The notes beneath the pieces are model-generated. The model was not told where the DNA came from and did not search any database. It was given only the letters and a program-made list of their open reading frames with translations. Both the position numbers and the translations under genes were made by a program. A stretch of DNA of 64,000 nt, taken from the NCBI GenBank assembly GCA_902788555.1, contig CADAKQ010000006.1:29155-93154 (forward strand). Direction: 5' to 3'. Below, piece by piece: positions 35,106 to 39,778 of this stretch; within the stretch, counting starts at the first letter, position 1, and each line of letters opens with the position of its first letter. This DNA comes from an uncultured Lachnospiraceae bacterium. Its GTDB lineage: Bacteria > Bacillota > Clostridia > Lachnospirales > Lachnospiraceae.

Positions 35106-35178
35106 TCTTACATTAATCCATCTTTTTATAATAATTATATAATAAATTACAAATAATACTCCTTACAGAAATTAAATT

Positions 35179-35316
35179 GGTTGGATGTGTTTTATATATC
35201 TATAAGCAGGTACTTTGAACACGCCGGTACTTAGCGAGGTTTTTTCGAGCTTAGTACCGCTGCGTGTGAGAGTAGCGAGAGCGTGCCTGCGATAGATATA
35301 TAAAACATATCCAACC
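35179..35316 (+). ncRNA. Structured 5'-leader element, copy 1 (upstream of gpr)
   Basis: A 138-nt imperfect inverted repeat. The outer helix (about 25 bp, beginning GGTTGGAT) is followed by GCAGG/CCTGC, a CACGC/GCGTG helix, an internal loop on each side, and a GGTACT/AGTACC helix. A second copy exists at 37750-37939 with the same core and a different but still paired outer helix, indicating selection for base pairing. The 3' end is 24 nt before the gpr ATG. The region 35106-35178 upstream is AT-rich with TATAAT-like boxes at 35127 and 35138 but no clean -35. It is a candidate RNA leader or a mobile hairpin; see the findings. Confidence 0.6.
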
Positions 35317-35340
35317 TTTAAATAAAAAGGAGTATTTTTT

Positions 35341-36372
35341 ATGAAGAGATATATACGTACGGATTTGGCACTTGAATTAAAGGAAGACCTTCCTGAGCAG
35401 GGACTTATAGACGGTGTGAAGATATTTACCAAGAATTACAAGGATGAGGATATAAAGGAAACAATAATAGAGGTCGTAAATAAAAACGGAGAGATGCTGC
35501 TTGGAAAGCCTGTCGGTACTTATGTAACTATCGAAAGCAAGAGCTTGCGTGAGGGAGATGACAGTATAAATAAATCCTTTATGCAAATACTTCATCACAA
35601 CCTTGCCAAGATGATAGGTAAGGCCGATAAGATAATGGTAATCGGGCTTGGAAACAGAGCGATTACACCGGATTCGTTAGGACCGCTTGTAATTGATAAT
35701 CTCTATATAACAAGGCATCTTATAAATGAGGGACTGGTAAAGGAGGATAAGGAACTTTCCGCACTTATCCCCGGAGTTATGGCACAGACGGGTATTGAAA
35801 CAAGCGTGATTATAAAGTCGGTTTGTGATAAGGTTAAGCCGGATGTAGTGATTGCCATAGATGCGCTCGCAGCAAGAGAGCCTGACAGACTTAATTCTAC
35901 TATACAAATATGTGACACGGGAATTAATCCCGGTGCGGGAGTCGGAAATAATCGTGCGAGGCTTGATAAAAAGACCTTGGGAGTTAAGGTTATCGCTATA
36001 GGAGTACCAACTGTTATATCTGTTCCGGCTATCGTCTATCAGTCAGTTGAGGGTATGATAGATGTTTTAAAGGGCGGGAGAAATCAGAATGAAAGCAGCA
36101 GAGAAAGAGGGAAGAATAATAAAGACAAAAAGGGTGAATTAAAGCATAACGCAGATATTAGCCGTGAAGCTAAGTATGGAGAAGATGATGAATATACCGA
36201 TAAACTCGACCGCTTTACTGATGCGGAAAAATATGAAATAGCCTGTAATCTTCTTGAACCGGATCTTGCAGCTATGTTTGTAACACCTAAAAATATTGAT
36301 GAAGCAGTAAAAAAGGTTTCATATACAATCTCGGAAGCAATTAATGGTTTTTTGAATTATAAACGAAGTTAA
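35341..36372 (+). CDS. gpr: Germination protease (GPR endopeptidase)
   Basis: A 343-residue zymogen protease that degrades small acid-soluble spore proteins on germination. It starts MKRYIRTDLALE, the conserved propeptide cleavage region of GPR; then VIGLGNRAITPDSLGPLVID, GVMAQTGIETSVIIKSV, AIDALAAREPDRLNSTIQI(C)DTGI(N)PGAGVGN and the RARLDKKTLGVKVIAIGVPTVI motif. An extra lysine/glutamate-rich insert lies at ~240-290. AAAGGAG precedes ATG 35341. It is adjacent to spoIIP, the usual neighbour in Clostridia and Bacillus. It implies the organism sporulates. Confidence 0.95.
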   Translation: MKRYIRTDLALELKEDLPEQGLIDGVKIFTKNYKDEDIKETIIEVVNKNGEMLLGKPVGTYVTIESKSLREGDDSINKSFMQILHHNLAKMIGKADKIMVIGLGNRAITPDSLGPLVIDNLYITRHLINEGLVKEDKELSALIPGVMAQTGIETSVIIKSVCDKVKPDVVIAIDALAAREPDRLNSTIQICDTGINPGAGVGNNRARLDKKTLGVKVIAIGVPTVISVPAIVYQSVEGMIDVLKGGRNQNESSRERGKNNKDKKGELKHNADISREAKYGEDDEYTDKLDRFTDAEKYEIACNLLEPDLAAMFVTPKNIDEAVKKVSYTISEAINGFLNYKRS

Positions 36373-37749: not shown

Positions 37750-37939
37750 GGACTGTGTATGACATAAATATCCATAAGCAGGTACTTTGAAAACGCCGGT
37801 ACTTAGTGAGTTTTCGGTAAGTCTTAATAAATTTTACGAAGTAAGAATAATTAAGACTTATTGAAAAGGAACTTAGTACCGTTGCGTTTGAAAGTAGCGA
37901 GAGCGTGCCAGCGATGGATAAATATGTCATACACAGTCC
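37750..37939 (+). ncRNA. Structured 5'-leader element, copy 2 (upstream of lepA)
   Basis: A 190-nt imperfect inverted repeat with the same core as 35179-35316 (GCAGGTACTTTGAA, ACGCCGGTACTTAG, CTTAGTACCG, AGTAGCGAGAGCGTGCC). The outer helix sequence is entirely different (begins GGACTGTG) but again paired over about 25 bp. CACGC/GCGTG of copy 1 becomes AACGC/GCGTT here, a compensatory change. The inner loop is replaced by an extra helix (AAGTCTTAAT with ATTAAGACTT). The 3' end is 24 nt before the lepA ATG, the same distance as in copy 1. Confidence 0.6.
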
Positions 37940-37963: not shown

Positions 37964-39778
37964 ATGGCACATCTTGATCAAAAATATATAAGAAATTTTT
38001 GTATAATCGCACATATAGATCATGGTAAATCAACACTTGCGGATCGTATCATCGAAAAGACCGGAACCTTAACCAGTCGTGAGATGCAGGAGCAGGTGCT
38101 TGACAACATGGATCTTGAGAGAGAGAGAGGTATAACGATTAAGGCACAGTCGGTGCGTATAATATATAAGGCAAATGATGGTCACGAATATATATTTAAC
38201 CTTATAGACACTCCGGGACATGTGGATTTTAACTATGAGGTTTCAAGAAGTCTGGCAGCCTGTGAGGGTGCTGTTCTTGTTGTGGATGCGGCTCAGGGTA
38301 TCGAGGCTCAGACTCTTGCCAATGTCTATCTGGCTGTAGATCATAACCTTGATGTTATGCCGGTTATAAATAAGATTGATTTACCATCGGCAGACCCTGA
38401 AAGGGTTATAAATGAGATAGAGGATGTAATCGGAATCGAAGCAAGTGAGGCACCTCTTATCTCGGCTAAAAACGGAATAAATATAGAGCAGGTTTTGGAG
38501 CAGATAGTTGAAAAAATCCCTGCACCTAAGGGGGATGTGGATGCACCTTTTAAGGCACTTATATTTGATAGTCTTTATGATTCCTATAAGGGTGTAATAA
38601 TTTTCTGCCGTGTATTTGACGGTGTTTGCGCCAAGGGAACAAAGATAAAAATGATGGCAACCGGTGCAGAGGCGGAGGTTGTTCAGGTAGGAATATTTGG
38701 AGCGGGACAGTTCATACCTTGTGATGAGCTTAGTGCAGGTATGGTTGGATATATAACCGCAAGTCTTAAAAATGTTAAGGATACAACGGTAGGTGATACC
38801 GTAACGGATGCGGACAACCCTTGTGCCGAGGCACTTCCCGGATATAAGAAGGTTAATCCTATGGTTTACTGCGGACTTTATCCTGCAGACGGAGCAAAGT
38901 ATCCGGATTTAAGAGATGCACTTGAGAAGCTGCAGTTAAATGATGCATCCTTAAGCTTTGAGCCGGAGACCTCGATTGCACTCGGCTTTGGTTTCAGATG
39001 TGGATTTTTGGGCCTCTTACATCTTGAGATTATTCAGGAAAGACTTGAAAGAGAATATAACCTTGACCTTGTAACGACAGCTCCCGGAGTTGTATATAAG
39101 GTACATAAAACCGATGGTGAGGTTATCGAGCTTACCAATCCTTCCAATCTTCCTGATCCGTCGGTTATAGATTATATGGAGGAACCGTTTGTTTCGGCTG
39201 AGATAATGGTTACTACCGATTATGTGGGCGCGATAATGCAGCTTTGTCAGGAAAGACGAGGCATATATAAGAGCATGGAATACATGGAAACCACCCGCGC
39301 CTTACTCAAGTATGATTTACCGTTAAACGAGATAATATATGATTTCTTTGATGCTTTAAAATCCCGTTCAAGAGGCTATGCCTCCCTTGATTATGAGTTC
39401 AAGGGTTATGAGCGTTCAGACCTTGTTAAGCTGGATATGCTTATTAACAAGGAGGAAGTTGATGCACTTTCCTTTATTCTTCATAAGGATACTGCCTATG
39501 AACGAGGCAGAAAAATGTGTGAAAAGCTCAAGGAAGAGATACCGAGACATTTATTTGAAATTCCTATTCAGGCTGCAATCGGAAGCAAGGTTATTGCAAG
39601 AGAGACCGTTAAGGCGGTTCGTAAGGACGTGCTTGCCAAGTGCTACGGCGGTGATATAACCCGTAAGCGTAAGCTTCTTGAAAAGCAGAAGGAAGGAAAG
39701 AAGAGAATGCGCCAGATTGGAAATGTAGAGATTCCGCAGAAGGCGTTTATGAGTGTACTTAAATTAGATGAGGAGTAG
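37964..39778 (+). CDS. lepA: Elongation factor 4 (LepA)
   Basis: A 604-residue ribosome-associated GTPase. G1 is [13 protein letters not shown], switch 2 [17 protein letters not shown]4 NKIDL; domain III/IV and the LepA-specific C-terminus ([48 protein letters not shown]) are complete. The AGAGGA site is 7-8 nt upstream of ATG 37964. hemW follows 9 nt later, a common arrangement in Firmicutes (lepA-hemN/hemW). Confidence 0.97.

Follow-up and report, generated by a model that had tools for sequence, protein, structure and literature searches.

The 138-nt hairpin located upstream of gpr (positions 35179 to 35316) in the 64,000-nucleotide stretch of Lachnospiraceae DNA analysed here (the window) is probably a copy of a mobile element, and not the gpr-dedicated leader RNA that a preliminary description had proposed. 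The gpr site is empty in seven of the 12 genomes read, mixed genes follow the 24 sense copies in the window's genome, and antisense copies occur (among 145 copies, 32 lie between genes of the opposite direction, '--', and 92 between genes of their own direction, '++'). Moreover, the core is inverted at one locus, and in another genome (G047) it forms part of a transposon-like repeat with target duplications. Considering the observations as a whole, we are reasonably confident that the best explanation is a mobile hairpin that spreads as DNA, folds as RNA and is tolerated in mRNAs by this self-folding, with the caveat that most of its transposon-like features are shown in relatives only.

Two hairpins upstream of gpr and lepA

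The hairpin upstream of gpr (copy 1) has the paired arms first ascribed to it. Its outer arms (35179 to 35203 and 35292 to 35316; inverted repeat I2) are 96% complementary over 25 nt, and the fold of this strand (-88.2 kcal/mol, z = -11.3) was equalled by none of 200 shuffles. Like all parts of the window described here, it lies on the forward strand. Within the outer arms is the conserved core (AGCAGG...CCTG; 35205 to 35289), which is matched by model R1. Reading from the sequence, the core has a short apical part, CGAGGTTTTTTCGAG (35235 to 35249), with direct repeats CTTAG on either side. On the 3' side is a mini-hairpin, GC-GAGA-GC (35275 to 35282; helix 4 of an alignment of 111 copies). 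The loop GCGAGAGC, previously likened to a GAGA tetraloop, is indeed of the GNRA type, but it varies among copies as GAGA, GAAA or GCAA.

Just 3' of copy 1 is the probable Shine-Dalgarno sequence of gpr, AAGGAG (35328 to 35333, read from the sequence), followed by gpr itself (35341 to 36372), which codes for germination protease (TIGR01441, 335 bits; PF03418). The gpr leader also carries a hairpin that pairs with the ribosome-binding site, AATACTCCTT / AAGGAGTATT (35155 to 35164 and 35328 to 35337). Given that similar hairpins are present in some element-free relatives, for example G010 and G013, copy 1 appears to sit in the loop of an older gpr-leader hairpin.

Copy 2 has outer arms (37750 to 37775 and 37914 to 37939; inverted repeat I3) that are 92% complementary over 26 nt, and is located upstream of lepA (37964 to 39778), which codes for elongation factor 4 (TIGR01393, 792 bits over the first 487 aa). 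Its core (37777 to 37911) includes an extra long apical hairpin (helix 37797 to 37837 / 37841 to 37881) of a type that is variable yet paired in other copies. As had been noticed, the two copies have a common core and mostly unlike outer arms: two direct repeats link them, one of 50 nt (90%) and one of 82 nt (77%, extending into the 3' arm), and the arms differ over most of their length. Elsewhere, long apical hairpins with variable, paired stems have TTTACGAAGTAA-like tips (L023, L025, L026, L029, L333, L339) or AACGAACGAAGTGAGTT-like tips (L024, L027), and these types resemble a second, nested element.

Copy number and host range

The copy reported at 37750 to 37939 is real, but the element is not limited to two copies. 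A DNA search recovered 44 matching pieces in the window's own genome, and a covariance model built from 22 copies located 38 places at E ≤ 0.001. All 25 genomes searched from the genus of the window (g1), its own included, gave between two and 39 matches each, whereas the remaining 16 of the 41 genomes searched, which represent 16 further families of the order, gave no match under strict filters. For seven related genomes the model returned 174 hits (38, 33, 29, 25, 18, 16 and 15), from which 150 lines were used, reduced to 145 copies after merging identical sequences; unfetched copies, duplicates, eight of the weakest hits (L330, L332 and L342-L347) and six reverse-strand self-hits were left out.

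A pattern derived from the core was found in at least 118 stretches of named genomes. Among the 80 loci listed, the hosts are Lachnospiraceae, Butyrivibrio, Falcatimonas, Anaerovibrio and others, and extend to other Clostridia and Negativicutes. This set is mixed, in that two of the genomes in it, if not more, apparently fall within the genus of the window: JAFTFE01 (Lachnospiraceae bacterium RGIG3763) and JAMPBO01, the latter carrying a Bacteroides label that is probably wrong.

Neither window copy matched an Rfam family at the curated gathering threshold, in keeping with the earlier statement that no known riboswitch or ribozyme could be named; the only match in the window was a tRNA. Among eight further loci searched, the element copies were likewise unmatched, and the sole match was an FMN riboswitch elsewhere in L094 (L094:4909-5058), near element copies in G047. 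Sub-threshold matches to plant microRNA hairpins were taken as chance. In the open-access literature, which was searched with subscription papers mostly outside its reach, we found no description of this element family. We also considered, and set aside, arms that would serve as spacer-like phage guides; the core pattern occurred in none of the viral contigs, and the window copy had no match among plasmids and one 37-nt match in an unannotated phage record.

Secondary structure and constraint at the RNA level

The structure begins at its outside with the outer helix (median length 27 positions in 145 copies), followed by an asymmetric A-A/G step and a stem that carries the GNRA side hairpin on its 3' strand. 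Further inward are a variable short helix, a YU bulge, the paired segments GGTACTTAG/CTTAGTACC with a U·U mismatch, a tandem G·A and lastly an apical hairpin, short in some copies and long in others. The tandem G·A is a putative feature, assigned by our own reading.

Across 111 distinct copies, pairing holds in 96.5% of 4291 cells, and double changes occur at 29 of 39 pairs. The score for covariation is 0.424, as compared with 0.147 for shuffles and no more than 0.093 with a slid partner, although this alignment was fitted to a covariance model and hence leans towards structure. An alignment of 22 copies made with MAFFT has double changes at 21 of 39 pairs, and 48 named-genome loci, selected with a pattern in which much of the core is fixed, have them at 8 of 17 predicted pairs. 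The change from CACGC/GCGTG to AACGC/GCGTT on which the preliminary description relied is borne out by column pair 33-145, which is CG in 47, GC in 37, AU in 17 and UA in 10 of the 111 copies and is never unpaired. Selection on base pairing, proposed on the basis of that change, is supported by the double changes and, in the window's clade, by a strand bias of the kind expected for RNA.

This bias is evident in arm mismatches, where random strand-symmetric mutation would be expected to generate G·T as often as A·C, such that an excess of G·U points to pairing kept on an RNA-like strand. Among the 145 copies of the seven related genomes there are 103 G·T cells and 21 A·C cells, and counting each unique mismatch once, with isolated mismatches only, the numbers are 55 G·U and 10 A·C. 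By context, the unique ratio is 39:5 in '++' copies, 7:3 in '--' copies and 4:0 in '-+' copies, with seven more cases in incomplete or convergent contexts; the excess in antisense ('--') copies is not significant. These counts point to a constrained RNA specifically in the sense copies of the window's clade. In the named-genome copies the bias is absent (32 G·U and 26 A·C in the 79 of 83 copies whose flanks were long enough), and the unmerged counts by context, made with 78 copies, are 15:11 for '++' and 16:9 for '--'.

The preliminary description had held that copies inserted in either orientation, with flanks that are unpaired in other genomes, would speak against an RNA leader. Both orientations were found, but the arms still pair in all 79 named-genome copies, where every pairing score reaches or exceeds the shuffled maximum of 12 and the median is 24.8 versus 7.3.

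Position relative to genes

In addition to the '++' and '--' copies described above, the 145 include 12 in divergent gaps, two in convergent gaps and seven at incomplete ends. Repeated occurrence before translated genes, named in the preliminary description as a mark of an RNA, was observed for the '++' copies, among which the outer stem ends a median of 24 nt (commonest value 22) before the called start, and 67 of 92 fall at 13 to 38 nt, where start codons were called by a simple ORF rule and orthologous copies were counted each time. Nine of the 92 lie less than 5 nt from the start and 16 at 41 nt or more, and some of these outlying distances probably reflect wrong start calls. The named-genome set has no clear orientation bias (29 '++' and 20 '--' of 78), and no clear pattern with respect to the replication strand was apparent by eye in the single-contig genome G006.

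The genes that follow the 24 sense copies in the window's genome are leuB, purC, ilvD, leuC, folD, trpD, panD, ribBA, a methyltransferase-like gene, rlmD, murI, ldh, a glycerophosphodiesterase-like gene, gltB, argC, pgsA, lepA, argJ, amt, glnA, mutS2, gpr and two genes without an NCBIfam name. Nine of these (leuB, leuC, ilvD, trpD, gltB, argC, argJ, glnA and amt) relate to amino acids or nitrogen. A consistent downstream gene set, as would be expected for a riboswitch or attenuator of one pathway, was not found among the 24, which span several pathways. Likewise, no protein family recurs more than three times among the neighbours of 83 named-genome copies, and by this clustering no neighbouring protein stands out as a common mobiliser.

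Variation at orthologous sites

Orthologous sites were read in 12 of the 26 genomes with a gpr match, in 10 of the 31 with a match to the lepA query and in 14 of the 24 with a match to the ilvB site. The element is present at gpr in five of 12 genomes, and G008 and G024 bear the same arms as the window copy. At lepA, three of 10 genomes have the element, two have arms without a core and five have neither. At the ilvB site, the element is whole in G024, reduced to a single arm in G000 and G016, shortened or altered in G004 and G015, and lacking in G008, G014 and G023, with the other six genomes unclassified.

The single arms at ilvB raised the prospect that arms are inverted copies of host flanks made at insertion. 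We rejected this candidate, as no arm is present in the element-free relatives read at gpr, upstream of trpD (L004), at the first copy of L012 or upstream of leuB (L206), and one single-arm allele retains the last bases of the core (L310 compared with L321). Given these armless empty sites and the core remnant, deletion is probably the better reading of the single arms, with less certainty for ilvB itself. At L012 (approximately 1440-1680), the left flank outside the arms, ACATATTTTTTACCTCA, repeats in inverted form the right flank, where the ribosome-binding site lies, and this inverted flank is absent in the three element-free relatives read.

In several pairs of orthologous copies, changes occur in blocks. 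Between L003 and L333, the left flank, arms and core are kept and the entire apical hairpin is swapped; between L081 and L319, the arms are kept and the core is swapped for a rare type present in L017. In two other pairs (L006/L310 and L010/L325) the inner stem is kept and the outer arms are replaced on both sides, and L024/L311 is another pair showing exchange or concerted change. L312 and L315, whose flanks are 93% identical, carry double changes at seven of 22 arm pairs and no single changes. Over all 117 ortholog pairs, which are not independent, one-sided changes are also common: the 2574 cells comprise 1526 unchanged, 358 changed on both sides with Watson-Crick pairing kept, 105 one-sided G·U, 52 one-sided A·C and 533 others, which include indels.

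At the site after trpD, the cores of L340 and L389 (G008 versus G023) are oppositely oriented within the same arms, which is the arrangement expected had the arms recombined and inverted what lies between them. L053 and L054 each have a reversed core nested in the apical stem of another copy.

Association with transposon ends

Mobility is supported in G047, a 6.1-Mb genome reached via L094. The terminal sequence CAATGNCATTNAGTTAAG occurs there 128 and 137 times on the two strands with two mismatches allowed, as compared with one and three matches for its reversed control. Thirty fetched loci represent 17 distinct elements, of which 16 are 189 bp and one is 158 bp in length, and all 17 contain the core. 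Direct repeats of 9-10 bp flank 15 of the 17, with 14 exact and one carrying a mismatch. Several target sites (L094, L114, L154) are small palindromic repeats (GTTACTATTCACGGC / GCCGTGAATAGTAAC, and AACAGTTCAGCC), such that one repeat family lands in another.

The same genome has a 1.7-kb insertion sequence (IS) whose ends are those of the 189-bp element and which codes for a DDE_Tnp_1 transposase of at least 436 aa. This IS is without the GGTACTTAATGAG part of the core, and no direct repeat was seen by eye around the copy inspected. Near its right end (L297:1811-1858) is an inverted repeat with AGCGAGAGCG, whose letters are identical to the side hairpin of the core; this repeat may be due to chance or may be a terminator. 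The G047 ends agree with the IS4-subgroup pattern, -AATR--------WTW----, given in the portion of PMC2266710 that we draw on, where repeats of 10-13 bp and a size of 1400-1650 bp are also stated.

Some members of the window's genus have elements with TAGGCAATTGCGAAAC as their ends, and L301 and L303 show duplications of 10-11 bp as read by eye. Some of the CAATTGCGAAAC places in the genus were looked at, and no IS partner with the same ends was found there. Pairs of CAATTGCGAAAC are 4.3 kb apart in G001 and G044, and the interval in G001 holds four ORFs of more than 120 aa, which by eye are one small and three transporter-like.

For the window copies, a search for terminal inverted repeats, target duplications or a mobilising enzyme found none. 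The arms in the window's genome are nearly copy-specific, with no recognised terminal inverted repeats in common, and no target-site duplication was found for window-type copies. The mobility of the window copies is therefore argued from presence and absence differences and from relatives. As is typical of miniature inverted-repeat transposable elements (MITEs), the element is multicopy (38 places in the genome), non-coding and short (138 nt).

Proposed explanation and alternatives

We propose that the element spreads in the form of double-stranded DNA. In one host at least (G047), an IS4-type transposase would move it as a miniature inverted-repeat transposon, as argued by the terminal repeats, the target duplications and the longer IS with the same ends, and we infer IS4-type movement in other hosts. 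The part that stays constant is a centre of 85-90 nt, with a U·U mismatch and tandem G·A in its stem, a two-base bulge and the GNRA side hairpin. Once inserted, copies diverge quickly in their long outer arms, and the two arms do so in step. The most likely causes are copying of one arm from the other and exchange of pieces between copies by ectopic gene conversion, as suggested by the block replacements seen between orthologs.

In the window's clade, where most copies are sense insertions between co-directional genes approximately 24 nt before the next start, the transcript is predicted to fold on itself and leave the ribosome-binding site free, which would allow the insertion to be tolerated. 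The likeliest role in a host mRNA would be that of a self-folding insert that leaves translation undisturbed and perhaps alters local decay, the latter suggested by the correlation reported between bcr3 and decay rate (PMC3446304, in part). The hairpin may also shield or process the intercistronic mRNA.

A role in RNase III processing or mRNA stabilisation, as for Neisseria CREE/NEMIS or Bacillus bcr3, is in our view a tentative possibility, and one that is compatible with the explanation preferred above. A long double-stranded stem (median 27 positions) in intercistronic gaps and the CREE and bcr3 precedents are consistent with such a role, but a plain RNase III substrate does not need a conserved core.

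Somewhat less probable, in our judgement, is a purely DNA-level palindrome, either a relic transposon or a REP-like hairpin recognised by an enzyme in single-stranded DNA, whose arms would stay paired only through hairpin-templated repair. In REP/RAYT elements, a palindrome of 20-40 nt bears a GTAG or CGTC tag and lies beside a Y1 transposase. A palindrome kept by repair would accommodate the double changes without one-sided changes in some close ortholog pairs, the missing G·U bias in named-genome copies, the target duplications in G047, and the nested and inverted cores. It fits poorly with the G·U excess in the window's clade (55 versus 10), with the sense bias (92 to 32) and with one core pair for which, among 111 copies, 96 have U·G, 15 have C-G and none has U-A.

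We also entertain, with considerable doubt, that the core itself is the travelling unit, a structured nucleic acid centred in unrelated palindromic elements and outliving swaps of ends and apical hairpins. If this were true, a recognised structure and not a recognised end would define the element, and gene conversion between copies would keep the core alive.

A cis-regulatory leader RNA (riboswitch or protein-bound) that controls a gene set is the least probable of these readings, as its attractions (a conserved structured core, sense bias, a preferred distance to the start codon, and amino-acid or nitrogen genes after nine of 24 sense copies in the window's genome) are offset by the remaining genes, most of which have no relation to those nine or among themselves (gpr, lepA, mutS2, murI, pgsA, ldh and others), by sites that are empty or degraded in relatives, by the existence of antisense copies, and by neighbour protein families that number three or fewer occurrences among 83 named-genome copies.

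Strong covariation can stem from a mobile hairpin and not just from a regulatory RNA, and researchers should proceed with appropriate caution on this point. The mobile, RNA-folding hairpin that we favour offers a natural system in which to measure how palindromic arms remain matched, and a model for how a mobile element may gain tolerance inside operons by folding its own transcript.

Comparison with known interspersed repeats

In MITEs, the ends are the part common to copies. Here, in contrast, the centre is common across hosts and the ends differ, being CAATGTCATTAAGTTAAG in G047, TAGGCAATTGCGAAAC in part of the genus and none that we recognised in the window. The G047 element otherwise resembles the IS4-family MITEs and mobile insertion cassettes of the IS231 group in its terminal inverted repeats, a target duplication of approximately 10 bp, its non-coding nature and an IS with the same ends. 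The ends of CREE are also conserved, and those of the element here are not. MITEs are the subject of a review (PMC10969869). CREE/NEMIS of Neisseria, according to the part of PMC2649163 that was available, are inverted repeats with a conserved core located near genes, as here, and can bind RNase III and be cut or protected.

The BOX and RUP repeats of pneumococcus, as presented in the available part of PMC3049150, are small interspersed repeats that would be strongly folded if transcribed and that likely affect co-transcribed genes. The element described here is similarly small, interspersed and foldable if transcribed, a likeness of description. BOX is also modular, but it varies by tandem boxB modules, whereas variation in our element involves entire apical hairpins and concerted change of the arms.

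The bcr1-bcr18 repeats of Bacillus cereus are also comparable, being MITE-like and located in UTRs and intercistronic regions, with bcr3 correlating with mRNA decay rate and bcr10 and bcr18 having conserved structures, as stated in the available part of PMC3446304; a title cited there calls bcr1 specific to the B. cereus group. The element here is likewise MITE-like and intercistronic with a conserved structure, and arms that are unique to each copy and matched in step are not described for bcr in that part of the paper. Repeats of these kinds are usually defined by conserved ends, whereas here it is the middle that widely differing Bacillota have in common, with ends that may vary provided that they pair.
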